DNA of 64,000 nt from Thraustochytrium sp. TN22. Taxonomy: Eukaryota > Sar > Bigyra > Thraustochytrida > Thraustochytriidae. The position numbers were made by a program, and so were the translations under genes. The notes under the pieces are model-generated. The model was not told the origin of the DNA and searched no databases. It was given only the letters and a program-made list of their open reading frames with translations. Location: the NCBI GenBank assembly GCA_013306675.1, contig JABLUY010000017.1, positions 186,001-250,000 of the forward strand, read 5' to 3'. Below, piece after piece: positions 6,792 through 61,407 of this stretch. The first letter of the stretch is position 1. Each line of letters begins with the position of its first letter.

Positions 6792-6823
<32 letters not shown>

Positions 6824-7100
6824 GCTCTGCTGCTCGGCTTTGGCTTCGGCTTCGGCTGTTGCGGTTCTGCTGCAGCCGCGGCAGCTGCGCCGCGGACGCG
6901 CGCCAGCAAGGCGGGCCAGGCCACGCACTGGATCCGAGCAGCCCCGGTCAAGCATCTCAGACACACAGACACATACGCACTGCACTTTGCGAACGGCAGC
7001 CAGAAGGGCAGCACACAGGTGGTAGCTAGGTCGGCGAAGGAGCGCGCAACTGAGCAGGCTGGGGACTGATCCAGAAATTGGACGCCTCGTCACCCCTTGC
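6745..7100 (-). promoter_or_regulatory. 5-prime region of the NPS aquaglyceroporin gene with a CAG/CTG repeat
   Basis: Directly upstream of the chosen start. It has about ten CTG triplets at 6793-6823 (CAG on the gene strand), then GGCTTC-type repeats near 6838-6860. The gene frame remains open through this stretch, so an N-terminal extension by an alternative start cannot be excluded, but it would be pure low-complexity Ser/Gln/Lys. Confidence 0.4.
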
Positions 7101-20390: not shown

Positions 20391-20394
20391 GAAG

Positions 20395-20453
<59 letters not shown>
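20391..20453. repeat. (GA)n microsatellite
   Basis: About 27 uninterrupted GA units after a short GAA-rich lead, ending about 20 bases beyond the 3-prime end of the AT-hook protein gene. Likely polymorphic between strains. Confidence 0.95.
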
Positions 20454-22160: not shown

Positions 22161-22205
<45 letters not shown>

Positions 22206-27564: not shown

Positions 27565-30500
27565 ATGGAGCCGTCCATGCGCGGCGCGAGGCAGGCGGAC
27601 GAGGCGGCGCCAGCGCGCCCGCGGCGGCGCACGAGGCCAACGACGACGACGACGACCACCACCACGAGCCCGACCTCGACGAGGGCGGCGCCGGCGGAGG
27701 AGGAGAGGAGGAGGAGGAGGAGAGAGGAGAGGAAGGGCTCGGCGGCGAGGCGAGGGAGGCCCGCCGCGGCCGCCGCGCTGCTCGCGCTCCTGCTGCTGGC
27801 CGCGCTCCAGGTCTGCGCGAGTCTGGCGCAGACCGCCTCCTCGGCGACGGCCTCCAAGGCCGTCGAGGAGGCGGCGGAGGAGGGCGTCCAGGCGCAGGGA
27901 GTGGCGGCGGCGGCAGCAGCAGAGGCCGCCGCCGGCGAGAGCCAGGGCGACGTAGACGAGCTCAAGGTCGGTCTCGTCCAGGAGGAGGAGGACCTGGAGG
28001 ACCTGGAGGACCTGGAGGAGGCGGAGGAGGATGAGGCGGCGCCGCATCTGCTGGACCTCCTGCAGTCGTGCCGTGCGGACGAGGAGTGCAGGTCCGGCGT
28101 GTGCTGCGAGCACTTCCGCGTGTGCCTGCCGAAGTCATGCCGCGACGGGCGGCTGAACGGCAACGAGACAGGCGTGGACTGCGGCGGCGACACGTGCACG
28201 CCGTGCGTGGCGGGCGCCGGCTGCGAGGTGGACGAGGACTGCCTGTCGCAGCGGTGCGAGTCCGAGTTCAGGCACCACTGTCTGCCGGCGACGTGCACGG
28301 ACGGGCGCAAGAGCGGCGCCGAGACGGACGTCGATTGCGGCGGACCGCTCTGCGCGCCGTGCGCGCTGGGCGACGCCTGCGAGGCGGACGACGACTGCCA
28401 GTCCGCGCTCTGCGACGATGAGACCGGCATGTGCGTGGCAGCCTCCTGCGGGAACGGTGTGCGCGACGCCGACGAGACCGACGTCGACTGCGGCGGCCTG
28501 GACTGCCCGGCCTGCGAGGACGGACAGTCATGCACGGCGAACCGCGACTGCGCCAGCGGCGCCTGCGATGCGGATGCCGGCGTCTGCGTGCCGCGCTCCT
28601 GCACAGACGGCGTGCTCAACGGGAACGAGACCGACATCGACTGCGGCGGCCCGCAGTGCATGCCGTGTGCACTAGGCGCACGCTGCCAGGCGCCGGAGGA
28701 CTGCGCGGCACTCGCCTCGCTGCCCGAAGTCGGCGCAGCGCCCGTCCAGGCCACCTGCGACCCGCATGCGCTCGTGTGCACGCCGATCACCTGCCTGGAC
28801 GGCCTGCTCAATGGCAACGAGACCGCCGTGGACTGCGGCGGCCGCTTTTGCCCGCCCTGCGAAGACGCCGCCGAGTGCGTGCGCAACGCTGACTGCCGCA
28901 GCGGGCTCTGCAGCCCGGACCTCGGCCTCTGCATGCCGCGCACCTGCCGCGATGGCCTGCTCAATGGCAACGAGACCGACGTCGATTGCGGCGGCCTATG
29001 CGGGCCATGCGCCGCCGGCCGCGGCTGCGCGAGCGCCGCTGACTGCCTCAGCGGCCTCTGCGACCCGACGCTCGGGACCTGCCTCGACGCTTCCTGCGTC
29101 GACGGCCGCAAAAATGGCCTGGAGACCGACCAGGACTGCGGCGGTCCCACCTGCAGCCGATGCCCGGACGGCGCCACCTGCGCGGCCGACGACGACTGCG
29201 TCAACGGCCGCTGTGACGAGCACAGCCGGCGCTGCCTGCCAGAGCACTGCGCGAACGGCCAGCTCGACGGCCTCGAGACCGACGTCGACTGCGGCGGCCC
29301 GGACTGCGGCCCGTGCGCCGACACGCGCCTCTGCGAGGCGGGCGCCGACTGCCTCAGCGGCATCTGCGACCAGGACCTCGGCGTCTGCCTTGCCGAGTCC
29401 TGCCGCAACGGCCTGCTCGACGGCAACGAGACCGACGTGGACTGCGGCGGCGGCTGCCGCCCGTGCGCGGTCGGCGGCTTCTGCAGGGCCGATACCGACT
29501 GCGCCTCGGGCGTCTGTGACGACGACCTCGCCGTCTGCGTGCCGGCCACCTGCCGCAACGGCCGCCTCGACCCGGGCGAGGCCGACGTGGACTGCGCCGG
29601 CGACTGCGCGCCCTGCACCGACGGCTCAGCCTGCACGCTCGACGCCGACTGCGTCTCGCGCACCTGCGACGCCGACGCCGGCCTCTGCCTCGCGCCGCAC
29701 TGCCGCGACCGCCTGCTCAATGGCAATGAGACCGATGTGGACTGCGCTGGCCCGGACTGCCTCCCGTGCGAGAACGGCCGTCGCTGTCTTGCCAACGCCG
29801 ACTGTCTCAGCGGCCTCTGCGACCCGAACACGGCGCGCTGCCTCGACGCGCACTGCGCCGACGGCCTGCTCAACGGCAACGAGACCGCCACGGACTGCGG
29901 CGGCCCGGACTGCCTTCCCTGCGCCGACCTGCGCGACTGCCGCGTCGACGCCGACTGCCAGAGCGGCCGCTGTCACCCGGACGCCGCGGTCTGCATGCCC
30001 GCCTCCTGCTTCGACGGCGAGCTCAACGGGAATGAGACCGACGTCGACTGTGGCGCTCAGTGCACGCCCTGCGCCGCTGGCAAGGACTGCGACCACCCGG
30101 CCGACTGCGCCAGCGGCCTCTGCGACCCGGACCAGGGCATCTGCCTCGACGCCTCCTGCGTTGACGGCGTGCGCAACGGGCTCGAGACCGCCGTCGACTG
30201 CGGCGGCCCCGTCTGTGCGCGCTGCGCCGACGGCCTTGCCTGCCACTCGCACGCCGACTGCCAGCACGAGCACTGCTGCGAAGTCCACGCCGTTTGTCTC
30301 GCGCCGCACTGCGCCAACGGCGTGCTCGACTTCAACGAGACGGACCGCGACTGCGGCGGCCCGTGCTCCCCGTGCGAGGACGGCTTCCTCTGCGAGCGCA
30401 ACGCGGACTGCCTCAGCAACTCCTGCCACGATGGCGCCTGTCTGCCAGCCTCGTGCAGCAACGGCCGCCTCGACGGCAACGAGACCTCCACGGACTGCGG

Positions 30501-33500
30501 TGGCCCCTTCTGCCCGCCCTGCTCCGTCGGCGACCGCTGCGAGCGCGCCTCGGACTGCAACTCGGACGTCGCCTTTTGCGACGCCACCGATGGCATCTGC
30601 TACCCGCTCGCCTGCGCCAACGGTCTCCAAGACGCCGGCGAGACCGACGTGGACTGCGGCGGGCCCGACTGCCCGCCCTGCGAAGACGGCAAGCGCTGCG
30701 AGGACGCCTACGACTGCGCCTCCTCCGCCTGCGACCTCGACACCGGCATCTGCGTGCCGCCCGCCTGCACGGACGGCCTGCTCAACGGTGACGAGACCGG
30801 CGTCGACTGCGGCGGCTCCTGCGCGCCCTGCGCCCAGGGCGTCGCCTGCCGCGCCGACGGCGATTGCGCCGCTGACCTGCGCTGCGAGCCCTTCCGCGGC
30901 CTCTGCGCGCCCGCCACCTGCTTTGACGGCGTGCTCAATGGCCACGAGACCGGCCTCGACTGCGGCCACGACTGCTCGCCCTGCGACCACGGCTACGACT
31001 GCCTCACGGCGCGCGACTGCAAGGAGCTCTGCAGCGAAGACCGCGCTACCTGCATGCCCTTCTCTTGCGTCGACGGCATGCGCAATGGCCTCGAGACGGA
31101 CACGGACTGCGGCGGCCCGTTTTGTCGCGAGTGCGCGAACCTGCATCTCTGCGCACTCGACCGCGACTGCCAGAGCGGCTTCTGCGACCCGCGCCTCGCG
31201 CGCTGCATCCCGCGCCAGTGCAACGACGGCATCCAGAATGGCAACGAGACCGACGTCGACTGCGCCGGCGGCTGCGCGCCCTGCTCGCTTGACGCGCGCT
31301 GCCGCGCCGACCGCGACTGCGAGTCCGGCCTGCGCTGCGACCCGCTCCGCACCGTCTGCGCGCCGGCCTCCTGCTTCGACGGCCTCATGAACGGCAACGA
31401 GACCGATGTCGACTGCGGCGGCCCGCACTGCGCGCCCTGCGCCACCGCGCTCGCCGCCTGCGCGCTTGACGATGACTGCAATGGCACCATGGTCTGCGAC
31501 CCGGCTCTCCAGCAGTGCCTGCCAGCCGACCCTCTCGAGCGCCAGCTGCTCCTCCTGCCGCCCTCCTGCCGGAACGGCGTGCAGGATGGCGACGAGACCG
31601 ACGTCGACTGCGGCGGCCCGCTCTGCCTGCCGTGCAACCGCACCGGCGCGGCCTGCGCGGCCGCCGCGGACTGCGCCGATGGCCTGCTCTGCGCCGCCGC
31701 CTCCAGCACCTGCGTGCGCGACACCTGCGTCAATGATGTGCAGGACGGTCAGGAGACCGACGTGGACTGCGGCGGGCCCGACTGCGCGCCCTGCGCCGAC
31801 AACGCCGCCTGCGCCGACGCGCGCGACTGCGCCAGCGCGGTCTGCGACCCGGCCTCCGGGCTCTGCCTTCCCGGCACCTGTCACGATGGCATACACAACA
31901 ACGCCGAAGCCGATGTCGACTGCGGCGGGCCCAACTGCGACCGCCGCTGCGCCGAGCTTTCCACCTGCAATGCGGACCAGGATTGCGTCGATGGCCTGAT
32001 CTGCGACCCCGACGCGGCGCGCTGCGTGCAGCGTGACTGCCTCGGCCGCTGCGGCGGTGACCACTGCCCGCCGTGCGCTGTCGGCCGCGCCTGCGACTCG
32101 CCTTCCGACTGCGCGTCGGCCGCCTGCTCCGCGCACTCTGGCCTTTGCGTGCCCGCGCACTGTGGCAACCGCGTGCAGGACCACGACGAGGTTGACGTTG
32201 ACTGCGGCGGCGCCAGCTGCGACCCCTGCGCGGCCGGCGCCGCTTGCACGAGCGACGCCGACTGTGCCTCCGGCCTGGCCTGTGCAGCGGCTGACTCCAC
32301 CTGCCGCCCGGCCTCCTGCCAGGACGGCGTGCAGAACGGCCTCGAGACCTACACGGACTGTGGCGGCCCACACTGCGCGCCCTGCACGGCTGTCGGCGAG
32401 GCAACTTGCTTGCTGGACCGCGACTGCGCCTCTGGCCTCTGCAGCGCCGACGGCGAGTGCATCGCCAAGACCTGCGCGAACCACGTCAAGGATGGCGAGG
32501 AGACCGACGTGGACTGCGGTGGGCCCTTTTGCGCTCCCTGCGAGAATGGCCGCCGCTGCACCGACAGCGACGATTGCCGCACCGCCTTTTGCGACCGTGT
32601 CCTCGCCGTTTGCGCGGACCCGGCCGACGCCGACGACTGGATCGTCGACTGCGACGGCAACCGCCTCACCAACCTGGAGTGCGCCTCGGCCCGCCTCGGC
32701 TACACATCCTGCGACCAGCACCTCAACGACAACGTCTGCGATGACGGCGCCTTCGTCTCGGACGCCGGCGTCGCCATCAGGCTTAATTGCGCTGCCCACG
32801 AGTGCGACCGCGGAGCTTGCGGCGCCTGCCGCCAGCTGAGCCAGGGCCGGGGCCAAGACCAGCTGCAGGGCAGTGCCCAGGCGCAGGCGCAGGCGCAGGC
32901 GCAGGCGCAGGCGCGCTACTCACTCCCGGGCGTCAACGCCGCCGCGCTGCCAGACTCCGAGGCTGGCGCCGCGTGGGCCGCCAACTATGCCGGCCTCAGC
33001 AACGGCGCATCGCTGGCCTTCTCTGGGCCGCCAGAAATCGTCACGCGCCTCACGCAGCTCCACAAGTTGGCAGACGTTGACTTCTCCCAGTACGACGACG
33101 CGGACACCGGCTTCGTCTACGGCGATTTCTTCCGCAATGTCGACTACGACAGCCTCGCACGCCCGGCCTCGCTGTGCCAGCCGCGCTTCGGCTGCCGTCT
33201 CTCCACGGACCTCGCGCCAGCTATTGACGCTTTTGCGCACGTTATCATGAGCTTCTACGACTTTAGCTCCATGGAGCAGGACGAGCGCTTCCTCGTGGAG
33301 GGCAGCCGCGACCCGGCAAGCCGCGTGCTGCTGGACGGCTTCTATCTCGCCGCGCGCTCTGCGGACCAGCCCAAAACGCTCACGCTCACCGGCAGCCTCC
33401 GGGTCGGCCGCCTGAGCGTCGTAGGCAAGGGTGGCGTCCTCGACCTGACCGAGGCCGAGTCCGTCCATCTGGAGCAGGGCCTGGTGGTCCTTCCCGGCGG

Positions 33501-36500
33501 CACCGTGCGCCTGGGCGGACCCATGGCGCTCACTGGCTCGGACCGCGCCTTCCTGCTCGTCCTTGGCTCGATGGAGATCGAGGCTGCCGGTGACGTCGAC
33601 CGGGAGCACCATGAGCTTCAGGATCTCGAGCACTCCTCGGCGCTCGTCCCGTTGCTGGACCTCGCCCGCATCGACGTCTTTGGGGCCGCCCGCATGCACC
33701 ACGGCGCTGCCGCCCAGCTAACGGCGCGCACCGCCTTCTCCGTCATGCCGGGCGCCTCGCTCGAGCTCTTCGGAGATCTCGCGCTGCGCTGCGCCTCGTC
33801 CGCACGAGACTGCCGTCTGCGCAACCTCGGCTTGCTTCGCGTTATGGGCGCCGCCACCCTCGATGTGCACCTGCTCAACGACGGCCACCTCGATCTGCAG
33901 TCTGGCGTCTTTCGCGCGGCTTTTGGGCTCACAAACCGCGGGCTCGTCACCGTCGCACCGACTGCTGTCTGGGAGGCGCAGTCCGCGCGGCTCGATTTGC
34001 GTGGCGCGCGCTTCATGGAGGATGACTTCGGGCTCAAGGCGCTCCTCGCGCAGACCGAGCCCGTCGACAAGGCCTCTCTACTGCTGCAGCAGCAGCTGCT
34101 CCGCTCCCGGGTGCTCCGGGCCCAGGTTCTCGTGCGCGGCGTCCTGCGCCTCGCGGACCAGGCCTCCCTCCATCTCGCTGACGGCGCGCTGCTCTCTGCT
34201 GTGGGCCCCTGCGCCCTCGAGCTGCGCGAGGGCTCCCGCACCAAGGTGCTCGCCGGCTCTGAGATTGTCCTTGCGCCTGCCGCCGACGCCTCGGCGCCCG
34301 CCTGTGCCCGCGAGACCCCGCTGCTGCACGGCGAAATCCGCCTGGCCGGCGCTGGCGCCGTGCTTCGCGCCTTCATTCCCGATTCGACGTCCCGCCTCCA
34401 CATTGACGGCAAAGTTCTCTTCTCGCAGGGCGGCGCCGTGCTGGTGGAGCACCCCGGAAGCCTCGTTGGTGCTGCTGCAGCCGATCCCACCGTGTCCGTG
34501 GCGCGCAGGTCCCTCTCCGCCACCGGCGCAGGTACCAGCGCTACGACGATGACCTCGGGCGCCAATACGGTCTTTAGTAACCCGGTGGTGGCGGATGGCG
34601 ACCTTGTCATCCCTCAGGGCCAGAGCGTGACCTTCCGCTCGACGCTTGTGCACACGGGCGCACTCACCGTGCTGGGCTCGGTCACCTTCGAGGACTACAC
34701 CCTCATCGCGCACCGCGTGAGCAACGAGGGTCGTCTGATCGTGGGCTCTGCCGGCCGCGTCATGCTCGCCGGCATGTATTCCGGCGACGGTTTTCTCAAG
34801 GTGAACGGCCAGCTCTACTTTGGCGGCTCTGGCGCCGTGGGCGGCGACCTCGTCAACACCGGTCGTGTGCACGTCGGCGTCGAGTCGCGCGCCGTTCTCG
34901 CGGACTTTGAGCGCAATCTCTTCGCCTACGACACCGAGACTGCCTCGGGCCGCCGCCTGCTCGCCTGCGATGGCCAGCCGCACACCACGCACGTGCGCTT
35001 CGACGTTGGCGCCGCCTCCGGTGTCGGCGTCGAGTGGACGCTGCCCGTTCATACCTGCGAGCGCACGCCCGACGAGCCCACACTGCTCGCCGCGCTCTCG
35101 CGCCAGCTCGGCCTCGAGTCCGTCGATGGTCTCTCGCTGCGCGCTGGCAGCGGCAGCGGCGACGGTGCCCATACACTGCGCCGCTCGCTGGCGCGCGCCT
35201 CGGGCGCCTGGCACCAGCAGCGCGAGCTCACGCCCGAGGTCAGCCTCGTGGCGCCCGCCGCGACGCTTCCCGTGGGCGCCCTGGCGAGCACCTTTGCGCA
35301 GGCCGACGGCGTCCTGCTCGACATCGCGCGCGCCGCCACCGTGGACTTCCACGGCCGCGTCCTCGACGCGGGCGGCATCCTTGTCGCGGACGAGGCCGAC
35401 GTTGGCCTCCACGGGACGGTGTCCTTTGACCGGCCCATGCAGAACTTTGGCCGCCTCTTCATTGGCCCCACCGCCCACGTCGATTTCGCCCGCGCGCTCG
35501 ACAGCGCCGGTAACGTCACCATTGAGGGTAACATCACCATCGCCGATGAGACCATCTATTCGCAGGACGTATACCTGCGCGGCTCCATGCATGTGACGTC
35601 CACGGGCAATGTTACCTTCGAGTCGCTCCTGGAGAACTCCGGCACGATCACCGTCGACGAGGGCGGTGGCGTTGCCATGTTCGGCGCCGCCACCTTTGAT
35701 GAGGAGTCCTTCTTCATTTGCGACGGCGAGCTGGAGCTCGGCTACGGCAGCTCACTCGTGCTCTATGGCGACTTTGCCGTCACCGAAACAGGAACCACAA
35801 CAGTGGACGGTGCGCAGATTGACGTCTATTCGCCGGCCGTCTACTTTGACGGCCTGTACTTCCAGACCCGCGGCGCCTTTGTGAGCGTCGAGGACGGCGG
35901 TGTCCTGGTCTTCGAGGGCGAGTTCTCCTCGGACGAGAACGCGCAGATCTCCGTGGAGACCAACGGTAAGCTTCGCTTCCAGGGCTCCTCAATCTTCGCG
36001 CAGGACCTCGTCACGGGAGCCGCATACCGCTCTGCTACCGACCAGTACGTGGCGCTGTCCAACAAGGGCACCCTCGTGCTCTCGCGCACCGCGACGCTCA
36101 CCATGGACGGCACCGAGCTTTCAAGCACCGGCTCGCTTGATGCCAAGGAGGGCTCCACGCTGGCCTGCTCTTCGTCCGACGCCAAGCTCACTCTCAATGA
36201 CGCCGTCGTGGACGGCCTGTTGGCCGTCAACAACACCTGCGTCGTCACCTTCACCGGCCACAACGTCGTGGGCGGCTCCGTCATGGTCTCGTACGACGCG
36301 GTCACTGTCATTGCCGCGACGCGTCTCACACTCGACCAGGACGCCCTGTGGACCTCGGACGGCGTGCTCACCGTAGAGCAGGACGCCACGTTTGTGGTCA
36401 AGGGTCTGCTGCGCAGCCGCGGCCACGCGCTCAACCGCGGCCGCCTCATGCTCGCCTCGCGCCTGGCCATGCCCAGTGTCATCACCTCGACGCTGCAGAG

Positions 36501-39500
36501 CTACGGCTCTGTGATGGTCTCTGGCGCAGCCGTGCTGCGCGGCACCAACGCGCAGTTCAGCGGCGACCTCATCGTGGATGTCGGGGCCGCACTTTACCTG
36601 GACGAGGCGGCCGCCGTGGTGGTGGCCGGCTCGCTCTCGCACGACGGTCTCCTGAACCTCGGCGCTTCGGGCCAGGCCTCCTTCACCTGCGCCTCGCCCG
36701 AGTGCTCCTCTACGTCTGACAGCCAGCTCGAGGGCCTCGGCGCGCTCACGCTCTCCGAGGGCGCCGAGTGGGACCTTCTTGGCACGGTGCAGGTGCCCGT
36801 CGGTGCGGAGCAGTGGCACATCGTCCAGGGCGCCACGCTCTATCTGGGCGGTGCAGCCTCTGTTGGCGCATCGGTGCAGAACGAGGGCACGCTCGTGGTC
36901 ACCACGGACGGCGACGCAGTCTTTCTGGACTCGATTGTCTCGACTGGCCTCCTTCAGGTCGACGGCGCCGCCGACCTCCTCGGCTCTAGCGCGGACCTGG
37001 ACGGCGAGATCGCCGGCGCCGGCTACCTTGTGGTTGGTCCGTCGACCAAGGCCGACGTGCTGGCGGACGGCACCCTGCGCGGCGGCATCGAGGTGCGCGT
37101 CGGCGGCAGCGCCGTTTTCTGGTCCTCGTCCTTCACGCTCGAGGGCCTCACCAAGATCGATGGCGACATGTTCATCAGCACCGGCGCGCAGGTCGCCTTT
37201 CGCACGGGCGGCTCTGGTCGCGTGCAGCCCGGCGCGGCGCAGCTGGTGACTACGGGCCAACTCCGCAACGACGGCAACCTGAGTATCGGCGTGCTGGCGG
37301 ACCTCGGCGGCAACTTGGAGTCCACCAGTCTGCTCATTGTGGAGCCTGCGGGCGAGGCCACGGTCGTGGGCCTGCTCGAGGTGCAGGAGGGCGAGCTCTA
37401 CGTGCGGGATGGCGAGCTCATCATCGACGCCGAGGGGCAGTTGTCCGTGCTCGACACGGCTGCCCTGGTCTCTTCCGATGCCGCTTTTGTTCAGGTGGCC
37501 GGCTCACTCACCATCGCGTCCGGCGCCACCGCGGATCTGCGCGGCCAGGCCGCCTCCGCCTCAAGCGCCATTGTGCACGTTCTCGGCGAGCTCGTGCTCG
37601 GCGCCAGCGCTGACTTCCAGGGATTCACCGAGGTCGAAGGCCTCCTCGTGCTCGCCAACGACGTTGCAGCCACCGGTACGAGCAGCCGCGGTGCAGTCTT
37701 CCACGACGTCTTGCAGAATGGCGGCCAGCTCTGCGCGCAGGCTGGTGCGCGTCTGCAGATCGACGGCGGCCTTACCTCCACGGGCGCCATTTACGTCATG
37801 CCGGCGGCGGAGATGATTTTCACGCTTGACAGCGTGTCCAAGCTCACTGCGTCCACCGAGGTGGAGCAGCCGCAGGTGGTGAACCTCGGTTCGCTCATCG
37901 TCGACCAGGACGCCAGCCTGGCCAGCGAGGTTGACTTTGTGAGCACTGGCGAGATTGAGGTGCACGGCACACTGGAGCTGGACGGCGGCGCCATTCAGCT
38001 GTCCGAGACGGCGCGCGCCATTCGCAATATGGTGCCCGACCTTTTGGCAGCGGACCTCAACGATATCTCCGACAGCGATGTCGGTGGCCTCTCCGTTATG
38101 GAGGACGGCACGTTGACCGGCTGGGCCACCGTGGAGGGCGACCTCGTGAGTGAGGGCACCGTGCGCGCTGGCTCTGAGGAGGAGCCGTCCGCCGTGCTCT
38201 CCGTCTCAGGCACTTTTACTGCGCGCACGACGGCCATTCTACAGGTCGCGCTGGCCCTCTCCGACGACAGCGAGTCCTCCATGCCGGCCTACGGCGTCCT
38301 TGACGTGGCGGGCGCGGTCGACCTCGCCGGGACCGTGACGGTTGTGTCGGACCGCTTCTACAGCGACACGGTGCGCCTCGCACCGCTCCTGGCGAGGCGG
38401 AACAACCTGGATCTGTCCACGGAGACTGTCTTCAGCGCCTCTGGCCCGGAGGATTACGAGTTCACCGCGGACGGCTTCGTGGACCAGACCTCGGTGAGCG
38501 GCACCCGGCGCGCCGTCCTTTTGGTGGACCTGCAGAGCTCGCACGCCGTGGTGGTCGGCTCGCGTCGCTCGCTGAGCGCGGAGGCCGTGCTGCACGCCGA
38601 GGACCTCCTCGCCAGCGACCTCGACAGCAACGTGACCCTGGGCGCCAGCCCGCAAACGCCGGACGGGACTCAGCTCGTGGACCTCTGGCTAGGGGGCGTC
38701 CGCGGCATCGAGCCTAGCCGCGTGCGCCGCATCGTGCACACAATCGAAGGGTACCTGGGCATGGTGCCGACGGCGCAGCTGCAGAAGAAGACGCGCATGC
38801 CGGCCTTCTTCGAGGCGTATGTGGCAGAGGTCGTCTCACGGCGCTCGGGCCGTTCTGCGCCCGCCTCCTTCCGCGGCGGCCTGCAGCTCACGCTCGCCTT
38901 TTCCTGCCCGACGCTGGTCGAGTGCCGCTCGTTTTGCACGACCCTGCGCGAGCTGCGTGCCGGCATCGCCCGGGACCTCGTGGAGCGCCTGCACGCGCTC
39001 GGCGTACACACCTTTGCGATGCGCTCCACCACCTGCGCCTCGGTGCACGAGCAGGCACATGTCGCCTCGCTCACGCCGCCGGTTTGCGTGTCGGACGGCC
39101 TGCGCGGCACGTTTCTGACGCCGGGAGTGGAGTGCCACGAGCCCTGCACCTGCGTGGGCGAGGCTTGCTCCTGCTTTATGCGCAGCGGCAAGTGGGCCGG
39201 CTGCGAGTGTGGGCCGTTCGCGGCCGCCGGTGCCTCTTCCCTAGCGACCGCGCCGACTTCCACGGTCGCCTCGCTCGGTGACCTGGCGCATCCGCAGGTG
39301 GCGTGCGCCGCCAACGGGCTCGGCGCGCCGCGCGCCGGCACGCCGTGCGCGTTCCCGTTCTGGTTCGATGGCCAAATGCACCACTCGTGCATCGGGTCCG
39401 GCTGGGGCGGCGATGGCTTCTGCGTTATCCAAGGTGAGCTGGCCGGGTGCAAGTGCGAGTCGGCCACGGCTGCAGCTGCGGCCGCGGCCGCGGACGGTGC

Positions 39501-51500: not shown

Positions 51501-54500
51501 TGTGTACGCGTCTAAATCGCGCGCACAGAGCATGACGTCCGTGGTGCGCGCCGAGGCATCTGGCTTCGCCGGCCTGCACCATGATACCCGCCTCGAGTAT
51601 GCATACGCGCTTGCGCCCGTGGGCACGGCGCCGTGCAACGAGAAGGCGCCACGCCTGCCGCTGTCGACAGCCTTTGGCGCGGCGATGCAAACAGACGCGG
51701 TACTGCCCCCTGGCGAGTGGGTCATTCTGGCCCTGGCGCGGGCTGCGGACCGGGCGGTGGACCGCGAGACGGCTGCCGAGGCCTGCGCGGCGTCTGCCGT
51801 TGTCTCCGTCTCGGCGCTGGATCTGGGCCATGGGTCGCTGGAGTCTGCCCTCGGTGCGGAACTGTCGGCGCGCGCCGGCGGCGCTCAGCGCGTCCTCCAG
51901 CTCTTCGGCATCTGGGCCGCCGAGCTGTACCCGCATCTGCGCGTCGATGGCGCCTCGAGCGAGGCGACAGAGAGCTGCATGGCGGACGCCGACTGCGGAC
52001 CTCTAGGCTCGTGCGAGGCGGATGCCTCGTGGGCTGCCTCGCCTCGCTATGTGTGTCAGTGCCCCGCGTCCCGGTATGGTCAGCACTGCGAGCACTTCGT
52101 ACCGGCGGCCGAGGCGGAGGAGGCCTTTCTGTCGGCGCTCCTTGAGGCGTTGCGTGGCGGCGCGGTCCCGGCGCTGCCCGCGATGCAGCTGCTGGCGCAG
52201 ACTCCGGCGCGACCGGAGGCGGCGGCGCGACGCATTGAGCTTGGGCGCGCGGCGCTGGCGCAGGCCGACTTTGCGGCTGGTGACGAGGAGTGCCAGGTCG
52301 CACTGGAGGGCGTCGTGGGCTCGGCGCTGGACAGCGTGAATCGGCGCCTGCTGGAGTCCGCAAGCCCCCTGCCAGATCGGCTCTCGGCGTGCGGCACGGC
52401 GGCGGCCGAGAAACTCCACGCGTCTTCGGTCCTCCCGCTGGTGGCGGCGCTGCCTGCCGGGACGCAGTACGTCCTGGGCCGGAGCCTGGCGACCCAGACC
52501 GTGGCGGTGGAGGGCACTCACGGGAAGCACTCGAGCGTGCTACTGGCGCACGACCCATACCTGTGCGAGACGGTCTCGCCGGTGGTGATGATCCCCTCGG
52601 GTGCTGATGCAGGCGCAGTCCGGGTGCGAGGCCTCCCGGCGCTGGGCAGCCGATACGAGGGTCTGATGTGCATGGGGCGCGGCGCGGACGGACACGTGCT
52701 GCAAGGCGTGTGCGAGGGCACGCCACAGGACTGCACTTGCAAGGTGCCGGCCGGCGAGACCATGTATGTGGGGCTGTACGCAGCGTCCGCCCCCGGCATC
52801 GAGCTGGTGAAGCTGAGTGGCGGCGGTGAGAAGCTGGACGATGCGGATGCGTGGGAGGTCGCGGTGTCGCTCTCGTCCGCGCCGCATGGTGCCCAGGTTC
52901 AGGTGTACCTGAGTGGCAGCGAGGCGGGCGAGATGATCGCGTCGGCAAGCGGGTCGCGATGCGCCAACGTGGTGACGGGCAAGGTGGGCCAGGCGTGCAC
53001 GCACGCACTCTCAGACTGTACAAACCCGCTCGTGGAGACCTGCGTGTCAATGCCAATGGCGCGGTCGCTCATTACCTTTTCGCCGCAGCTCGTGACCTTT
53101 GGCAAGGGCAACTGGAGCGTCCCGCAGACGGTCCGTGTGAAGCCTGCCAAGGTGTCTCTAGCCGGGCCTGCGCTGCTGAGTGCCCGGGTCGTGGCCACCG
53201 TGACGGCTTCGGACGACCTCAGGTACATGCACGTAAATCGCTCGCTGTCGGTCGCGCTGACGGCCATGAGGACACCGGCGCTCTCGGCCTCGCCTTCGAG
53301 TCTGCAGCTTTCCGAGGGCGATGCGGGCTTTTCTACGGTTGTGGTCGGCCTTGGCGCCGAACCTCGCGGTCCGGTCCGGGTTGAGGCGGTCTTTGACGCG
53401 GATATGCTTGAAGTGAGCCCCACGGTGGTCAAGGTGGACCCGCAGGCGTGGGCCTCTGGCGCGAGCTTCCGTGTGCGCGCCGTAGACAATCAGGTCACTC
53501 AGGCGCTCGCGCGTTACCCGGCGGCGCTGCGATTCCGACTGCAGCAAGGCAGCCTGGAGGCCGACCCGTTTTTCGCGGCGGCCGCCAGCAACGGCGGCGA
53601 TGTGGAGGTGGCGACGACGATCGTTGACGACGAGACGGCTGGCCTGGTGCTGAGCCAGTCCTCGCTGACGCTGGTGGAGGGCGGCACGCCCGCGCACGTG
53701 GGCGTGCGGCTGACGCAGAAGCCAAGCCGCGGCGCCGTCTTTGTGCGCATCGTGGCCCGCGACGGAACATGTCTCTCGCCGGAGCATGGCACCGGCGCAC
53801 GGCGGGAGAGCTGCGTGTCGAGCGCCGAGTGCATGCGCGGCTTCGAGTGCGTGCGGTCGACGGGGCTCGCGGTGGCCGCCGGCGCGCCGGCCGTGCTCCG
53901 CTTCGACGCTTCAAATTTTGACGTCGAGCAGCGCGTGCAGCTGCAGGCGTTCGCGGACGATTTCGTGGAGGGCGCGCACGAGGATGTGGTGGTGCTGGAG
54001 GTGTCCAGCGCAAACGACGACTCCTTCTCGCGCGTCGAGGCGGCCTCGCTGCGCGCCACCATTCTTGAGGAGGCGACCGCGCGCGGCGGCGTTGTCGTAG
54101 AGGCGGCACCCGGTTCCAAGACAGCGTCCTTGGGCGTGGTCCGCGTGGCTGAGGGCGGTAAGCCGGCGCAGTACGGCGTACGGCTGCAGACTCGGCCCCT
54201 GGGACGCGTCGGTGTGACGGTGCACGTGGACGCGGACCCGGTGGCGGCGTCGATGCTTCACCTGCCGGAGGGCGCGGCACTGTGGTTCGACATGCACAAC
54301 TGGGCGACGCCGCAGGTGGTGCGCGTGGAGGCTCGTGACGTGGACGCCTACTTCCAGCCGGACCACGCCCATGCAACCTTGGTGCACTCGCTGGAGTCCG
54401 CCACGGACGCCGCCTATGCGTCCCTGGGCGTATATCGCGACGCGGATGTCGCCGTGGAGGTGGTGGACGACGACGTACCGGCGCTGCGCGCGGACGTCTC

Positions 54501-57500
54501 GCAACTGATGCTGGAGGAAGGCGAGGCTACCTCGTTGCGGCTCAAGTTGGCGGCGCCACCGAGCGCGGGCCGCGACGTGGAGGTCCGCGTCAGCGTGCCG
54601 CATGGGCGCTGTGTGTCTGCGGACCAGGGCTTCTCGTCAACGGTGTGCTCTTCGAACGCAACGTGCCGCGCGTCCGTGGCGGAAGGCGCGTGGTGCTACG
54701 CGAACGCGCACGCGCTGGTGACGCCGCAGGTGCTGACGTTCTCAAGCTCGACATGGAATGCGTGGCAGACGGTGACGATCGAGGCCTTCGACGACCACGT
54801 GGTGGACGGCGACCTGGCGGGCGCTGTGGTGCGCGTGACGAGCTCGAGCTCTGAGACGTCTTTTGACGGCCTCGGCCTGCGCATTGCCCTGAGCGTGACT
54901 GACATGGACGCGGCCGGCCTGAGCTTTGTCGCGGGCGGTCTCGCGGCCGGCGGAAGCGACGACCGGCAGATGTTGCACGTAGTGGAGGGCCGCAGCGTGC
55001 ACTACGGCGTGTCGCTGTCGTCGCGCCCGCTCCTTCCCGTGCAGGTGTCGGTGCTGGAGTGGCCGCTCCGCAGCGAGGCCCAGGTGGCGGTGGAGCCGAC
55101 AAAGCTGGAGTTCCAGCCTGAGGACTGGGACAAGATCCAGTCGGTGGTCGCAACGCCGGTGGTGGACGGCCTGTACTGGCCCAAGGCGGCAGCGAGCGGC
55201 GGCGACGGCGTGGCCGCGCTCCGGCATGTCGTGGAGTCCACAGACGTCGCGTATCGTCAGCTGGCGTTCTTGGATCTCGGGCTGAACGTGTCGGAGAACG
55301 AGGCGCCTCTGGCGCGCATTGGGCTGGGCTCGGCGGAGGCCGGCGTCCTGCGTGTCTTTGAGCAGGATGCCGACGACGAGCAGGCAGACGCGGCGTGGTA
55401 CGAGGTGGCGCTTCTGGCACCGCCGCCTGCGGATGTTCCGACGGTTGTGCACGTCGACGCGACTTCGGGCTTTTGCACGCAGAGCGTGGTGGGCGTGGAG
55501 GTCTCGCGCGTCCTGGTGGCCGGCAGTTTTTGCTCGGAGCATGCGGACTGCGAGGCGGGCCAGTTGTGCCGCACGGGCACCAAGATCAAGGCGGAGCCTG
55601 CGAAGCTGGTCTTCTCTGAGCAGAACTGGAACGTCCCGCAGCGCGTTTCGGTGCGCGCGTGGGACGACGACGTGGCCGAGGAGTCCGTCCACCTGGGCCG
55701 CATTACGCACCGTGTGACGCGCCACGAGGCGGAGCTCGGGTCTGTGGACAGCGTGCTGGTTGAGATCGTGGACGACGATGTGGCGGGCATTGCGCTGGAT
55801 CGCGGGTCGATCCGTGTTGTGGAGGGCGAGGACGCGGACGCTTCCTTCCAGGTACGCCTGACGTCGGAGCCGCTGTCCCCGGTGCTGCTGGAGCTGGACG
55901 CCGGCCACGGCGGTTTAGTGACGGTGGTGCCGAGCACGCTGGAGATTGCGCCCGCCGTGTGGGCGACCTGGCACACGGTTCGCGTGCGTGCACGCGAGGA
56001 CGAGGTTGCGTCGGGTAAGCCGCTGGCAATGCAGCTCGTGCAGCGCGCGTTGTCACTGGACCCGGCGTACAACGGGCTCGCGCAGACGCTCGAGGTGGAG
56101 CGCATCGACAGCCGCGAACCGGAGGTGCGCGTCACGTTGGACGCCCCGGTGGCGAGCGAGGAGGGCCTGGTGGTGGCGGAGGGCGGCGCGGCCGCCCAGT
56201 TCTCCATCGTGCTTGGCTCGCGCCCCGTAGCGCCGGTGCGCGTGCGCGTGGATGCATCGCGCGGGTACTGCCGAAAGACGCAGCAGGCTTATCAGACGGT
56301 GCCAGACTTTGACCGGCCGTGCGGCGTTCGCAGCTCGGGCGGTATCCAGAAGACGCTCGTGGGCGCGAATACTGCCGCCGCGGCGGCAGCAGGGGCGGCG
56401 GCCTGCGATTGCATGCTGGGCCTCGGCGCAAACGTGGACCGGCGATGGGTGGACTTTTCCGCGGAGGACTGGGACCTGCCAAAGGTGGTGACGGTCGCTG
56501 CGGAGGAGGATGACTATGCTGAGCAAGCCACGCACCCGGCGTGGGTGCGTGTCTCGCTGGACGCGGCGACCACGATGGACGCCACGTACCGCGCGCACTA
56601 CAACGATGTGGAGGCGATCGACTGGGTCAGCGTGAGCATCCTGGATAATGATGAGGCTGGCCTCACGTTGGCTCCCGGCGTGCAGGAGCCGATCCGTATC
56701 GAGGATCAGGCACAGGAAGTTGCAGGGGTGCGCCTGCGCAGCCGGCCTTTCGCGTACGTGGACGTGGCCATGCGCGCCGATGTGCCCGTTCAGGTGACTC
56801 CCGATGGTGCGCGTATTACGCCGGAGCAGTGGGACGTGCCCGTGAGCGTGGTCGCGGTCTCGAACGCGCTGGGTGGTGCGGCGATGGACGCCTTCGGCGA
56901 GGGCCTGAAGCTGCATGTGGCGAGCCTCTCGTCTCGCGACCCGGCGTACGCGCCAGACGTCGTAGCTTCGCTGCAGGTGGCGGCGGAGCTGAGCGCCGAC
57001 CGCAGCGTGCGGGTGAACGTGGTGCCTGCCGGCACGGCGCCGGGCGGTGTGGTGTCCTCGACGAGCAGCGTGAGCCTGCGCGTGGTGGAGGGAGACGCGA
57101 GCGGGTCGGCCTACGCGGTGGTTCTCAACGCGGAGCCGCAGGCGAACGTGCGCGTCAGCGTGGTGGCGCCCATCGGGCACTGCGCTGACGCGAGCTCCGG
57201 GGCACCGTCTTATGCGCAGGGCTGCGCAGAGGGCTGCGGCAGCGGGCTCGTGTGTGTGCCCGGCACGGGCGCGACCGTGGTGCCTTCGGAGCTGGTCTTC
57301 TCGCCCGCGAACTGGAGCTTGCCTCAGGAGGTGGTGGTCCGCAAACCGGAGAACGCGGTGGACGAACGCGCCGGCGTGGCGCAGCCGCATGTGCGCACGT
57401 GGTCGATCCGGCACGAGGTGTCTGCAGGCGCGGACGCGCGGTACGACGCGCTGAGTGCGGTGCACGTGCCGGTGTCGCTGGTGGACACGGACGAGGCTGG

Positions 57501-60500
57501 CGTGATCATTCAGATCGGCGACGCCGCGGCCGTGACCCTGGGAGACGGCACAACCTCCGTTCGGACGGACGCCGTTGAAGGCACGGCCCTGGAGGTGGGC
57601 GTGCGGCTGGCGTCGCAGCCGTGGGCTGAGGTGAGGGTGAGCGTGGTGGTTGCGATGCCAATGCCGACGGCAGCAGCCACGGCGGCGTCAGCGGCGTCGA
57701 AGACGCTGCTGTCGCGGTCGGCAGCGGAGGACCGCGAGGCGGTGACCGAGGAGGTGACGTTGGCTGGCACGCTGATCTTCACGGCGAGGACGTGGAATGT
57801 GACGCAGCGAGTGCATGTGGAGGTGCCGGAGAATGACCTGGTGGACCCGACGGCGAGGTCCGGGGCAATTCGCGTGGAGACGGCGTCGCGCGACGCGCTG
57901 TACGCGTCGTCGTCGCACGAGGTCGGCCTTGACGTGCTAGACAACGAGTGCCGCGTCGGCTCGTGGGGCCCGTGGTCGGTGTGCGATCGCGCATGCGGGC
58001 CAGGCTTCGAGCGGCGGCACCGCGAGGCGTTCTTCCCGAATGGCGGCGGCGGCGGATGCCCGTACGAGATGGTGAGCCTGCGGCCGTGCAACCTGGGCTC
58101 GTGCACGAGCCTGTCGCTGGAGGACGGGTCAACGTCGTTGTCGTCGTCGTCGACTTCGTCGGGGCGGCCCATGATGCTGGAGCTGGGCTTCTTCTTCGGC
58201 GTGGCGATGCAGTCGGATCGCCGCGTGTTGGCGGAGGAAACGGCGAGCTCGGTGCACGCGAAGCAGATCAAGGAGTCGCTGGCGCGCGCCCTGGATGTGT
58301 CGACACGCCAGGTGGAGCTGGCGAGCGTGTTTCTGGCGCGCACCGAGAACGAGACGGACGTGGTGGGCGTGCGCGCGGTGGCATTTGCAAACGCGACACG
58401 CGGTGTGCTGGAACTGGAGACAGCGGCTCGCCGGCAGCTGTCGGAGCCGACGAGCGCGCTGAGCGAGGCCCTGCCGGGCCGCCTGCTGGTGGGCGCGGAT
58501 GACGTGGTGATCGTGCGGCATGCGGCGAGCGACTTTGGCTACTTTTGCGTCGCGTCGGACGCCGAATCGGACGCGCCCACGCACTCGCCCACCATGGTGC
58601 AGGAGCTGCACTCGCGGTCGGGCGGGCCAGTGCAGCTGGCGAGCGAAGAGGACTGCCTGGCGTGCGACGCGAGCGTGGTGCAGTACTGCTGCCCACTTGG
58701 CGCGGTCTCGAACGGGACGTGCCTTGTGGGCCTCGAAGACGTGCCGGCGGCATTTTGCGCGCACAGCGCGATGCCGTTGCGCGCGTGCGCGGGCGCCGGG
58801 CCGTTCTCGTGGCGCCTCGCTGCAGCGGGCAGCACGGCGGGCCTCTTGGGCGCCGTGCTGATGCTCTTTGCCTACCTGCAGCTGCGGCCTGCGCCGTGGC
58901 GGTCACCGTCCAGGGGCAAGGGCAAGGGCAAGAGGCCTCGGCGGCGGCTGCTGAGCGCGTACTGGGGCTTCTTTGGCGCCCGGCAGGCGAGCGAGGAGGC
59001 CATGGGCAAGAGCAGCCGCGGCACGCGGCGCTTCGGCACGCACTCGGAGTCGGCGAACTCTACAGATGTGCCAAGCGATGCAGGCCACGATCGAGAGCGG
59101 GATCTGCTGCTGGACCCGGCGCGCGAGATCGCGGCTGCGACCACGACGGCCGTGGCGGGTGACGAGGACCGCGACGCGGCTGGGGCCGCCGAGTCGGCCC
59201 CGCCTGGGTTCGCGCGTGCGTTCGCGCAGCACGAGCCGCCTTCGGATGAGGCCTTGGCGCCGGCAACGCGTGTACTGGTCTTTTACGACTACGACTCGAG
59301 CTACTACGTGGGCAGTGTGCTGCGTCACAACGTGCTGGATGGCACGTACTCGATCCTCTTCGATGATGGGGACGAGGATGACGCTGTCGAGCTGTCGAGC
59401 ATGCGGCTCATGGCCTCGGTGGCAGCCTCCAGCACTGGTGGGGCGAGCGGCCGTCGTGAGAGTAGCGGCGGCGCACGCAGAAGCAAGAGCGGGGCAAGCA
59501 GCATGCGCAGTGGCAGCAGCGGCGGAGGCAGGGCGAGCCTGCGAAGCGCGGGGCAGCAGAGTCGCGCAAGCGGCAGCGCGATGGGCGGCCTGCGCGGCAG
59601 CAGCACGGCGCTGGCGTTGGAGGACGCGCTGGCCCACGGGGGCGACGCGAGCTCCCAGGCTGGGTGCTCGATTGCCTCGGGCGATATTGTGGAGGTGCTG
59701 GACGAGCGTAGCGAGCGGTGGCAGCTGGCCCGCGTGCTGGAGGACGCGGCCAGGGGTGATGGCGAGCGCTTCCGCGTTGCCTTCGACGACGGCACGGTGG
59801 AGTCAAACGTGCCGCGGCAGCGCATCCAGCGCTTCTTGCCGGTGAACACGCCGGTGCGCGTGGTGTATGGCGGTGTAGGCGCGGCCTTCCAGGGCGTGGT
59901 GGCTGCCATCGTTGGCGACGGCGAGTACATCGTGCGCTTTTCGGACGGCGCCGAGGAGCCGCTGCCGCGCCAGTGGCTGAGCGCCGACGACGGGTCCGCG
60001 CTGGGCGCGGACGAGGTGGACTTTGAGGACGACATGCTCAACTTCCTCCTGCGCGGCGGCAAGGAGGACGACGATGAGGACGACGACAACGACAACAACC
60101 ACAACAGTGGGAGGCGGCGGGGTTCTGAGCACGAGAGCTTGTATGGGGAGCACGAGGTGGCTTCGGAGGCCGGCAAGCGGCTTCTTGATGGCCACGCCGA
60201 GACTGACCGCGCCTGGGACTCCCTGGTGCGCGATGGTTTCTCCGTGCGGCTCGACTCGCGGCGGGGACTCGGACTCAAGCTCGGCATGCTCCGATCGCGC
60301 CTCGTGGTCGTGACGGGCTTCCTCCCGCTCGCGGACGGCCAGCCGGGCCCTGCAGAGGCCTGCGGCGCTCTCCGTGTGCGCGACGTGCTGCTCGGCATCG
60401 ACGGCGAATCGGTGCGTGGCTGGGACTTTACCCAGGTGGCCGACAAGATCAAGCAGGCCGACCGTACCATCACCCTGCGCTTCGGCCGCATTGAGACGCA

Positions 60501-60513
60501 GCGTGCTCCGTGA
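27565..60513 (+). CDS. Giant (about 10,980-residue) modular single-pass surface protein, probable adhesion receptor
   Basis: One intronless frame encodes 10,982 residues. Order seen: basic N-terminus with a Thr run; hydrophobic signal segment (67-84, [15 protein letters not shown]); acidic linker; about 29 cysteine repeats with the core [11 protein letters not shown] (about 169-1732); beta-solenoid-like region (about 1912-3690); two FN2-like modules (about 3912-3966 and 3998-4053); an FN3-like segment (about 4076-4187); about 26 Calx-beta-like repeats (about 4206-7785); a REJ-like region (about 7841-8122); an EGF module (about 8136-8179); about 12 more Calx-beta-like repeats (about 8411-10129); one TSP1 repeat (about 10129-10181); one membrane span (about 10416-10441); three Tudor-like modules (about 10566-10804); and a C-terminal PDZ (about 10890-10974). 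Expected topology is a huge ectodomain with a cytoplasmic tail of about 540 residues. The start is placed at the ATG nearest the signal segment (M5 also possible). Adhesion is inferred from domains; Calx-beta arrays also occur in ADGRV1 and FRAS/FREM proteins, but this combination matches no family I know. Confidence 0.9.
28069..32760 (+). repeat. Array of about 29 cysteine-rich repeats (core [11 protein letters not shown]) in the giant protein
   Basis: Each unit is about 48-55 residues. The pattern is C-x-(D/N)-G-x-x-(N/D)-G-x-E-T-D-x-D-C-G-G, then C-x-x-C, a Cys about six residues on, D-C-x-S-G-x-C-D and a final C-x-P. I count 28 recognisable units plus one degenerate unit ([12 protein letters not shown], near 32040). 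Spacing of the Cys pairs is very regular, so intra-unit disulphides are expected, and the Asp/Asn/Glu positions around the core suggest calcium binding (inference). Similar Cys-rich repeats occur in secreted proteins of myxobacteria and some protists. One unit (near 28690-28780) and the one near 31440-31560 carry insertions. Confidence 0.85.
32875..32916 (+). repeat. (GCGCAG)n coding microsatellite, Gln-Ala run
   Basis: About six perfect hexamer units encode an alternating Gln-Ala stretch between the cysteine array and the next domain of the giant protein. It probably acts as a flexible linker and could vary in length between strains. Confidence 0.85.
33300..38640 (+). other. Beta-solenoid-like region of the giant protein
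   Basis: About 1,780 residues of short irregular repeats of the type G-x-L-x-V-x-x-x-A-x-x-x-F-x-G, with alternating hydrophobic residues, many Gly/Asn turns and phrases such as [15 protein letters not shown] and [15 protein letters not shown]. There is almost no Cys. This is the look of right-handed parallel beta-helices in adhesins and pectin-lyase-like proteins. Individual rungs cannot be counted reliably by eye. Confidence 0.6.
39295..39725 (+). other. Two fibronectin type II-like modules in the giant protein
   Basis: Module A has [19 protein letters not shown] followed by [14 protein letters not shown]; module B has [19 protein letters not shown] followed by [16 protein letters not shown]. 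Both show the FN2 signature C-x-F-P-F/I-x-F-x-G-x-x-x-x-x-C, then a W/F-C pair. They are joined by a short Ala-rich linker. A related Cys-rich piece (CECGPF, near 39200) precedes them and may be a degenerate third module. FN2 modules bind collagen or gelatin in animals; the ligand here is unknown. Confidence 0.7.
40180..50920 (+). repeat. First array of about 26 Calx-beta-like repeats
   Basis: Units of about 105-165 residues follow the pattern V-x-x-x-x-L-x-(L/V)-x-E-G-x-x-x-x-Y-x-V-R-L-x-S-(R/K)-P, then P-x-x-L-x-F-x-x-x-N-W-x-x-P-Q-x-V-x-V-x-A-x-D-D, and H-x-x-x-S-x-D-x-x-Y, closing with V-x-(V/I)-x-D-x-D-x-A-G. The acidic loop ends are those that bind calcium in Calx-beta domains. Many units carry an extra Cys-containing hairpin in the middle. 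Units are well diverged, so the array is old. Units near 48250-49700 are the most degenerate. The count is by eye. Confidence 0.8.
51085..52100 (+). other. REJ-like region followed by an EGF module in the giant protein
   Basis: After the first Calx-beta-like array comes [20 protein letters not shown], a Cys pair with LFSG, and then [20 protein letters not shown]. That arrangement resembles the opening of REJ (receptor for egg jelly) domains of polycystins. It is followed by an EGF module: [13 protein letters not shown], then [17 protein letters not shown], with six cysteines in EGF order. The next about 230 residues (to about 52790) are helical then Cys-containing and unrecognised. Confidence 0.5.
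52795..57945 (+). repeat. Second array of about 12 Calx-beta-like repeats
   Basis: Same unit pattern as the first array, for example [20 protein letters not shown] and [20 protein letters not shown]. About half of the units again carry the central Cys hairpin (G-x-C, CS-x-x-x-C, C-x-x-G). The array ends VGLDVLDNE directly against the TSP1 repeat. Confidence 0.8.
57949..58107 (+). other. Thrombospondin type 1 repeat in the giant protein
   Basis: [18 protein letters not shown] followed by [16 protein letters not shown]: the W-x-x-W-x-x-C core, the basic GFERRHRE strand and six Cys in TSP1 order. The WxxW motif is the usual site of C-mannosylation. It sits between the last Calx-beta-like unit and the juxtamembrane region. 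Confidence 0.85.
58810..60510 (+). other. Membrane span, three Tudor-like modules and PDZ domain: cytoplasmic end of the giant protein
   Basis: A single hydrophobic span ([16 protein letters not shown], about 58837-58884) is followed by a basic stop-transfer segment ([14 protein letters not shown]). Tudor-like modules: [20 protein letters not shown] with [32 protein letters not shown] with [11 protein letters not shown]; and [20 protein letters not shown] with [12 protein letters not shown] Ser/Arg/Gly-rich linker separates the first from the others. An acidic Asp run at 60069-60096 precedes the C-terminal PDZ, with its carboxylate loop region GLGLKLGM, then [17 protein letters not shown] and the final TITLRF strand. 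It probably links the ectodomain to cytoskeletal or scaffold proteins. Confidence 0.75.
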
Positions 60514-61161: not shown

Positions 61162-61407
61162 ATGGCAGAGCTGAAGCTGGTCGCCGAGCAGAGCGGCAGC
61201 GCGGGCCTGGCGCCACAGCACCTCGCGGCTGGCTTGGAGGGAGGCGCGGCCCTTGCTGCGCTGGCGCGGCTGCGCAGTGAGCACACGCGCACGCGCGGGA
61301 TTCCCAGCATGGCGAGCTTGGGCGGCCTCGGCGCTGAGCGCGGCGACAACTTCGCCGGGATGCATGAGCATGGACGGTTCTACGTCTATAATGAGGGCTG
61401 TCTGTGA
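61162..61407 (+). CDS. N-terminal piece of the transposon protein, or small upstream ORF
   Basis: 81 codons from ATG 61162 (MAELKLVAEQSG) to a TGA. The sequence ends with FYVYNEGCL, and the next frame resumes at once with SSDDELSTTSYELSEGE, so the two may be one reading interrupted by a frame change at about 61400-61407, or joined by splicing (GTGAGC, a donor-like sequence, lies exactly there). Without the next frame it has no recognisable domain. Confidence 0.4.
   Translation: MAELKLVAEQSGSAGLAPQHLAAGLEGGAALAALARLRSEHTRTRGIPSMASLGGLGAERGDNFAGMHEHGRFYVYNEGCL

Follow-up and report, generated by a model that had tools for sequence, protein, structure and literature searches.

What kind of product, if any, is encoded by a stop-free reading frame of about 33 kb in a thraustochytrid genome? 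The frame lies in a stretch of 64,000 nucleotides from Thraustochytrium sp. TN22 (assembly GCA_013306675.1, contig JABLUY010000017.1, positions 186,001 to 250,000), hereafter the window, and an initial annotation had read it as one uninterrupted gene for a surface receptor of 10,982 residues, with recognisable domains from end to end arranged in an unfamiliar series. Our analysis suggests, with a probability of roughly 0.6, that this is a genuine nuclear gene, apparently without introns, and that its product is one giant single-pass membrane tether, which would link a partner outside the cell to a PDZ/Tudor scaffold. For this protein we infer expression, topology, Ca2+ binding, a ligand, a scaffold and a tether function, together with a role in adhesion or anchoring and a length of a few hundred nanometres. 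Positions below are those of the window, and all features of the gene lie on its + strand.

No stop interrupts the frame between 26863 and its terminal stop codon at 60511–60513, a run of 11,216 codons; the next-longest stop-free run in any of the six frames of the window has 1,097 codons. Given the base composition of the window (68% GC), a run of this length would be expected by chance with a probability of about 10^-109. The first methionine codons of the frame stand at 26923, 27013, 27565 and 27577. Over 26923–27564 the GC content at codon positions 1, 2 and 3 is 0.75, 0.78 and 0.79, and over 27565–28065 it is 0.75, 0.58 and 0.92. Because the two upstream methionines sit in a composition that lacks the coding pattern, Met 27565 is the likely start, giving a coding frame of 27565–60513 and a product of 10,982 residues. 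In 900-nucleotide bins covering 27463–59862, third-position GC stays between 0.80 and 0.94, and all 1,094 sliding windows of 150 nucleotides reach at least 0.62. Hidden introns were rejected on this absence of dips: with third-position GC so uniform no intron-like gap is visible, although a short in-frame intron could still be present. A tandem-repeat search over periods up to 500 nucleotides recovered an array of cysteine-rich (Cys) units as a 153-nucleotide period at 68% match, and all remaining repeats within the gene have periods of 24 nucleotides or less. The repeat copies have thus diverged at the DNA level, making a collapsed or inflated repeat assembly unlikely. Profile searches and blastp detected no paralogous copies elsewhere in the window.

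The frame might nevertheless cover several adjacent genes or be an annotation artefact, its openness a chance result of high GC without translation into a single protein. High GC does lower the frequency of stops, as stop-free runs of up to 1,097 codons in other frames illustrate, and a Nup160 frame in the same window, described below, indicates that introns are probably present in this genome. Set against this are the very small chance probability, the uniform third-position signal in one and the same frame, the location of all repeat arrays and known modules within that frame, and a trend at synonymous sites that runs through the frame and drops off past its end. An artefact of this kind is highly improbable, and both the uninterrupted frame and the end-to-end domains of the initial annotation hold.

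The synonymous-site trend is seen at fourfold-degenerate sites, where G/(G+C) over 27565–60510 climbs from 0.25 in codons 501–1500 to 0.73 in codons 10001–10500, with values of 0.49 in the first bin and 0.54 in the last. When the gene is divided into thirds, the increase is seen in each of the eight codon families. In a logistic model that includes amino acid, next base and module, position retains nearly its full slope (p=1.1e-13), and module-specific codon usage was rejected as the cause of the trend since position stays significant given module. The gradient is not entirely smooth: module adds information beyond position (p=9e-10), the Cys array taken alone trends down (rho -0.11), and the solenoid-like segment taken alone shows no significant trend. 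Nine neighbouring open reading frames (ORFs) have coding-strand skews between -0.37 and -0.01, and the skew just downstream of the gene is -0.04, as opposed to +0.29 in its last part. These neighbouring values differ from those of the gene, tying the trend to the gene and not to the region, which fits one long-lived unit.

The ends of the product suggest how it might sit in a membrane. A hydrophobic stretch at residues 67–90 (27763–27834) is a likely signal sequence or signal anchor; residues 67–85 within it reach the highest mean hydropathy of the protein (2.42), follow an Arg-rich N-terminus of 66 residues and form a probable signal sequence. Towards the other end, residues 10418–10440 (58816–58884; hydropathy 1.89) form a likely single membrane span, followed by a basic stretch. 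Behind it lie the modules that the initial annotation had placed inside the cell, on the basic and presumably cytosolic side of the span. A Tudor module occupies residues 10567–10614 (59263–59406), and further Tudor/Agenet-like stretches follow at residues 10706–10801 (59680–59967); Tudor_3 (PF18115) matches two stretches (41.0 bits against a cut-off of 25.8, E=1.8e-10), with Agenet (E=4.7e-4) and DUF7141 (E=2.8e-4) each below their own cut-offs in the tail. The C-terminal PDZ module at residues 10892–10972 (60238–60480) passes with both PDZ_6 (PF17820; 32.9 bits against 27, E=5.2e-8) and PDZ (PF00595; 24.5 against 23.2), has four PDB matches between 1e-4 and 0.005, and is weakly matched by NCBIfam models of PDZ-bearing proteases. 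Both kinds of module therefore pass their Pfam cut-offs, as initially read.

Outside the span, the modules with the clearest family membership are FN2 and TSP1. Two FN2 modules lie at residues 3925–3966 (39337–39462) and 4012–4052 (39598–39720), with 40.0 bits to PF00040 against a cut-off of 22.2 (E=4e-10), a four-cysteine core that can be read from the sequence, and seven PDB matches including MMP-9 (4.4e-8), MMP-2 and fibronectin (0.0012). The TSP1 module at residues 10129–10180 (57949–58104) reaches 25.9 bits with TSP_1 (PF00090; cut-off 21.6, E=1.2e-5); its sister model TSP1_spondin gives E=2.7e-10 at 40.8 bits, 0.2 below its cut-off of 41, and thrombospondin-1 is found in PDB at E=3.6e-9. 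The initial annotation had proposed a profile hidden Markov model (HMM) search of the full product, and the Pfam scan run here places FN2, TSP1, Tudor and PDZ above their cut-offs, upholding the first reading of all four.

Since FN2 and TSP1 are common in matrix proteins, and since the Cys and bead arrays described below are compatible with a matrix role, the product could instead be a secreted component of matrix, scale or cell wall, in which the C-terminal hydrophobic stretch would serve secretion only. A PDZ/Tudor tail behind a basic flank fits a cytosolic domain better, and PDZ and Tudor folds are not expected outside the cell, making a secreted product decidedly improbable. The same tail could be taken to read out a ligand or force acting on the ectodomain, perhaps after shedding, as Tudor and PDZ are protein-binding folds. 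Yet such a signalling receptor is unsupported by the Pfam scans, which reported no GAIN/GPS, kinase or seven-transmembrane (7TM) family, and we regard it as distinctly unlikely.

Most of the ectodomain of the proposed tether is built from two kinds of repeat. The first is the N-terminal Cys-repeat array at residues 187–1682 (28123–32610), in which 29 units of about 51 residues could be delimited by hand, with half a unit before it at residues 168–186. An alignment of 15 two-unit stretches contains 25 invariant columns, 16 of them Cys, and the Cys repeats first noted in this region are confirmed. Pfam lacks a model for the unit, and NCBIfam gives no match in the chunks that contain it; one of 47 Cys stretches weakly matches a conotoxin model in Pfam and nothing else, and the three matches of the Cys profile to PDB sequences were judged to be chance. 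Structure prediction from three units, with seven further stretches from the window and 39 prokaryotic stretches, gave a best model with a predicted local distance difference test (pLDDT) score of 92.3 and a predicted template modelling (pTM) score of 0.64, the pLDDT of the five models spanning 92.3–62.9. Foldseek returned seven matches to this model, none of them significant (best E=3.6), and five of the seven are what we take to be cystine-knot-type peptides; this agrees with the weak conotoxin match and is no more than a hint that the core of the predicted fold may be knottin-like.

The second repeat, which we call the bead, is an immunoglobulin-like (Ig-like) unit without a Pfam model of its own, present in an array of 24 units at residues 4200–7801 (40162–50967) and a second array of 12 units at residues 8408–10140 (52786–57984). 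Each of the 36 units is matched at an independent E-value of 5.4e-12 or less by a profile built from the protein itself, which demonstrates repetition and not family. The initial annotation had assigned these units to Calx-beta. The Ig-like array is indeed present, but the units of the window stay below the Pfam cut-offs both of Calx-beta (PF03160; best 19.0 bits, E=0.0015, cut-off 27) and of fn3_6 (PF17766; best 24.9 bits, E=2.4e-5, cut-off 26.4). Among 46 two-unit stretches, 15 from the window and 31 prokaryotic, nine match Calx-beta (best 5.9e-8) and six match fn3_6 (best 8.9e-6) at E<=0.01. Calx-beta is thus the better guess from the relatives and fn3 from the window's own score. Four matches of the bead profile to PDB sequences, which together with the three of the Cys profile span E 0.06–0.75, were judged to be chance. 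A two-unit structural model from the 46 sequences shows beta-sandwiches with a low-confidence end (pLDDT 83.9, pTM 0.73) and gives 880 Ig-type Foldseek matches at E<=0.001, starting from E=4.6e-7; over the whole query, template modelling scores are only 0.15–0.39 among the 50 matches listed, a comparison that does not separate Calx-beta from fn3. As far as prediction goes, the bead appears to be an Ig-like beta-sandwich, the fold of about 110–120 residues expected of Calx-beta.

Loose patterns for a Calx-beta Ca2+ site, applied without a control, are found across the 36 units as a glutamate in 33, an acidic pair in 23, a terminal acidic cluster in 25 and all three in 18. Sixteen of the 36 units, within residues 4553–9987, also carry at least two Cys in their central loop, which by eye looks like the latter half of the Cys unit at the N-terminus.

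Between the Cys array and the FN2 modules lies a beta-rich, solenoid-like stretch (residues 1900–3660; 33262–38544), for which a power spectrum of hydropathy, computed without a control, shows strong periodicity at 2.0 and a lesser peak at 7. Pfam gives sub-threshold matches to G8 and Hyphal_reg_CWP, and no PDB sequence matches at E<=0.1. The beta-solenoid of the initial annotation is accordingly plausible from its beta-rich character and periodicity but lacks a PDB sequence match. Two smaller assignments lie between the bead arrays. An EGF-like module at residues 8138–8175 (51976–52089) has EGF-like cysteine spacing by eye and a weak match to EGF_2 (E=0.034) that at 15.0 bits misses the cut-off of 22.1, which leaves the earlier EGF call a weak one. 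The non-repeat stretch at 51088–51741, earlier read as REJ-like, is unconfirmed; we dropped this module, as REJ gives no Pfam match in 50965–51745 at E<=10 in a search whose HMMER filters can mask weak matches.

These features can be combined into a model of the tether. The chain would enter the secretory pathway through its N-terminal hydrophobic stretch and expose about 10,330 residues on the extracellular side, forming one long rod of several parts, with the 29 disulfide-rich Cys units at its tip, followed by the solenoid-like segment, the two FN2 modules, the 36 Ig-like beads and TSP1 at the membrane. If each bead adds about 4.5 nm, each solenoid turn 0.48 nm and each Cys unit 2 nm or thereabouts, the ectodomain would measure very roughly 250 nm. 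The distal modules might bind a surface, the matrix or a partner cell while the bead array carries load, and the short cytosolic tail, Tudor/Agenet-like with a terminal PDZ, would dock the tether to a submembrane scaffold. Calcium may stiffen the two Ig-like arrays, a suggestion that derives from Calx-beta biology and the loose acidic patterns in 18 of the 36 units and that would fall if the beads were fn3-like. The odds of the tether itself are unaffected by this choice, being independent of which Ig-like family the beads belong to.

Several observations weigh against this model. Sixty-six residues are a long lead for a signal peptide, so the N-terminus may instead hold a signal anchor, or a 5' exon may have escaped notice. 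The span is called from hydropathy and charge, and hydropathy comes close to its value in the solenoid-like stretch (1.77) and in a Tudor-like stretch (1.73). The family of the beads is unsettled, both candidates being below cut-off, and Ca2+ binding is uncertain for that reason. Tudor modules are familiar chiefly from chromatin proteins and would be odd in a plasma-membrane tail, and PDB sequences lend them weak support: 17 match at E<=1, headed by the repeat protein 7ue2, which aligns to an acidic stretch, and the next has E=0.0055, the rest being weaker.

A different fate for the same chain would be cleavage of one precursor, perhaps at RRxL sites, to yield a number of mature proteins that are secreted or stay at the surface, leaving no single tether of 11,000 residues. 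The ectodomain has six copies of the motif RR[SLAQ]L, where 300 shuffles give 1.2 on average and never more than 5; they lie at residues 2314, 2463, 2539, 3667, 8260 and 10289, none of them inside the bead units or the Cys array. This motif was, however, picked after being seen, three of its six sites fall inside the solenoid-like stretch, the wider RR.L occurs 10 times against 3.4 expected and so within the shuffles (maximum 11), and the ectodomain has only 32 dibasic pairs in all where 43 would be expected. We consider a processed precursor unlikely.

Where do the two long arrays of the proposed tether have relatives? In a genome collection, the core of the Cys unit matched at least 574 stretches, of which 549 were confirmed and 79 loci kept; the prokaryotic repeats, which carry the motif ETDVDCGG, are up to 68% identical to the window's unit over the matched part. 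Judging by record titles, these loci are mostly myxobacterial or deltaproteobacterial. Five of the 79 (L033, L042, L043, L074 and L086) are titled Woesearchaeota or Nanoarchaeota, and the Cys repeat reaches beyond bacteria if these archaeal bins are correct. The Cys profile also found 11 loci in viral contigs (L001–L011), nine of them matching about half a unit; a tblastn search of the viral collection with the tail and FN2 region found none. Across the 90 loci, 11 viral and 79 genomic, 98 of 5,190 ORFs contain the unit, and the longest arrays have 38 copies in a contig recorded as from an uncultured bacterium (L057) and 34 in one recorded as Myxococcales (L024).

The bead profile, for its part, matched two of 11 genomes behind titled Cys loci. 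In the phylum of Nannocystis exedens, at least 27 of 188 genomes carry the bead unit, a lower bound because at most 23 candidates were scored per genome. The prokaryotic ETDVDCGG proteins thus share the window's Cys unit, for which no family name was found, but none of the 98 Cys-bearing ORFs has bead units, and across 112 loci the two units never occur in one ORF or locus. This is a weak negative, because the bead loci were fetched separately, from the 11 genomes and one sampled phylum. The searches of the prokaryotic and viral collections show that the modules are present there and not the direction of movement. Both long arrays therefore have prokaryotic, mainly myxobacterial, counterparts, making part of the series first described as unfamiliar prokaryotic in type; the order of the domains is matched by nothing that we found. 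Prokaryote-type rods and animal-type modules seem to be combined in this gene as a mosaic.

Bacterial adhesins offer one comparison. BapP of Pseudoalteromonas tunicata has tandem Greek-key repeats of 108–141 residues with Calx-beta matches, and Ca2+-dependent adhesion has been proposed for it (accessible text of PMC12153261). LapA and BapP resemble the window protein in their Calx-beta-matching tandem repeats but are bacterial secreted or outer-membrane proteins, whereas the gene studied here has eukaryotic neighbours and one likely span with a Tudor/PDZ tail. A bacterial RTX or type I secreted adhesin was rejected on the eukaryotic character of the neighbours and the absence of RTX repeats, no RTX-type family being found by Pfam over the whole frame or by NCBIfam over the frame outside 46000–48399 and 52804–54999.

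The animal receptor ADGRV1 (VLGR1), an Usher protein, is closer in design. It carries 35 Calx-beta repeats, ends in a tail that binds PDZ domains and contributes to ankle links (accessible text of PMC10604119). Like it, the window protein would be a giant surface protein with a long run of beads, here 36 Calx/fn3-like units, and a PDZ link on its cytosolic side. It differs in its one likely span and in that Pfam reported no GAIN/GPS or 7TM family; the Cys array, solenoid, FN2, TSP1 and Tudor belong to the window protein. An ADGRV1-like adhesion G-protein-coupled receptor was rejected on the absence of reported 7TM and GAIN/GPS families and on the single likely span near the C-terminus. At most, then, the window protein might work like ADGRV1, its nearest working analogue. 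Fibronectin, MMP-2/MMP-9 and thrombospondin-1 match single FN2 or TSP1 modules in sequence, but their domain order is unrelated, and no metalloproteinase or FN1 family was reported in the window protein.

Fibronectin- and thrombospondin-related transcripts are named for the clam parasite QPX in the accessible text of PMC3986615, and the main text of PMC12221091 contains no "PDZ", "fibronectin" or "repeat". A literature search reaching a minority of subscription papers found nothing joining thraustochytrids with Calx-beta, or a giant protein, a protist and Calx-beta, and a broader search of titles and abstract openings found no comparable protein.

The surroundings of the gene are eukaryotic and nuclear, with domains mostly within single frames. 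Upstream, Pfam identifies Nup120/160, an enoyl-CoA hydratase, two MIP channels, a GT28-type glycosyltransferase, FMO and PA28; the window has no tRNA or Rfam match. The frame with the Nup120/160 beta-propeller (1–2445, - strand) has its first Met at residue 597, beyond the domain (144–416), so an intron or upstream exon is probable in this otherwise intron-poor stretch. The two MIP (aquaporin-type) channel genes are separate, at 5737–7089 (-) and 10745–11779 (-), together spanning about 6 kb. At 20478–22673 (-) lies an ORF of 732 residues with long Gln/His tracts and no Pfam match at E<=0.01; GCT/GTT-type DNA repeats lie within it, and an (AG)31 run adjoins it outside, at 20393–20453. Downstream, at 61395–64000, two overlapping + strand ORFs without a Pfam match at E<=0.01 look by eye like mobile-element genes, one for a transposase and one for a YqaJ-type nuclease. 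For comparison with the GC content of the window, that of the thraustochytrid Aurantiochytrium sp. TWZ-97 is 45.01% (accessible text of PMC12258536), a single genome that decides nothing.

Giant modular surface tethers are already known, and what is new here is the prokaryotic character of the two arrays. For the widespread and unnamed prokaryotic Cys repeat, the analysis supplies a fold predicted with confidence and an occurrence in a eukaryote, and the single frame of 33 kb is a place to study a synonymous-site trend. More tentatively, and with the odds against it, the protein may stand for a class of tethers, presumably of protists, in which the ETDVDCGG Cys repeat and the NWxxPQ bead, rod-forming repeats of prokaryotic type that both occur in myxobacteria, were captured by a eukaryote, expanded, fused to animal-type FN2, TSP1, Tudor and PDZ modules and connected through the membrane with a cytosolic scaffold, a non-animal counterpart of the ankle links and tip links of animals. 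If the product is one chain, it would rank with the longest known single-pass proteins at the surface of microbial eukaryotes, and would suggest that long extracellular tethers on PDZ-type scaffolds arose outside animals too.

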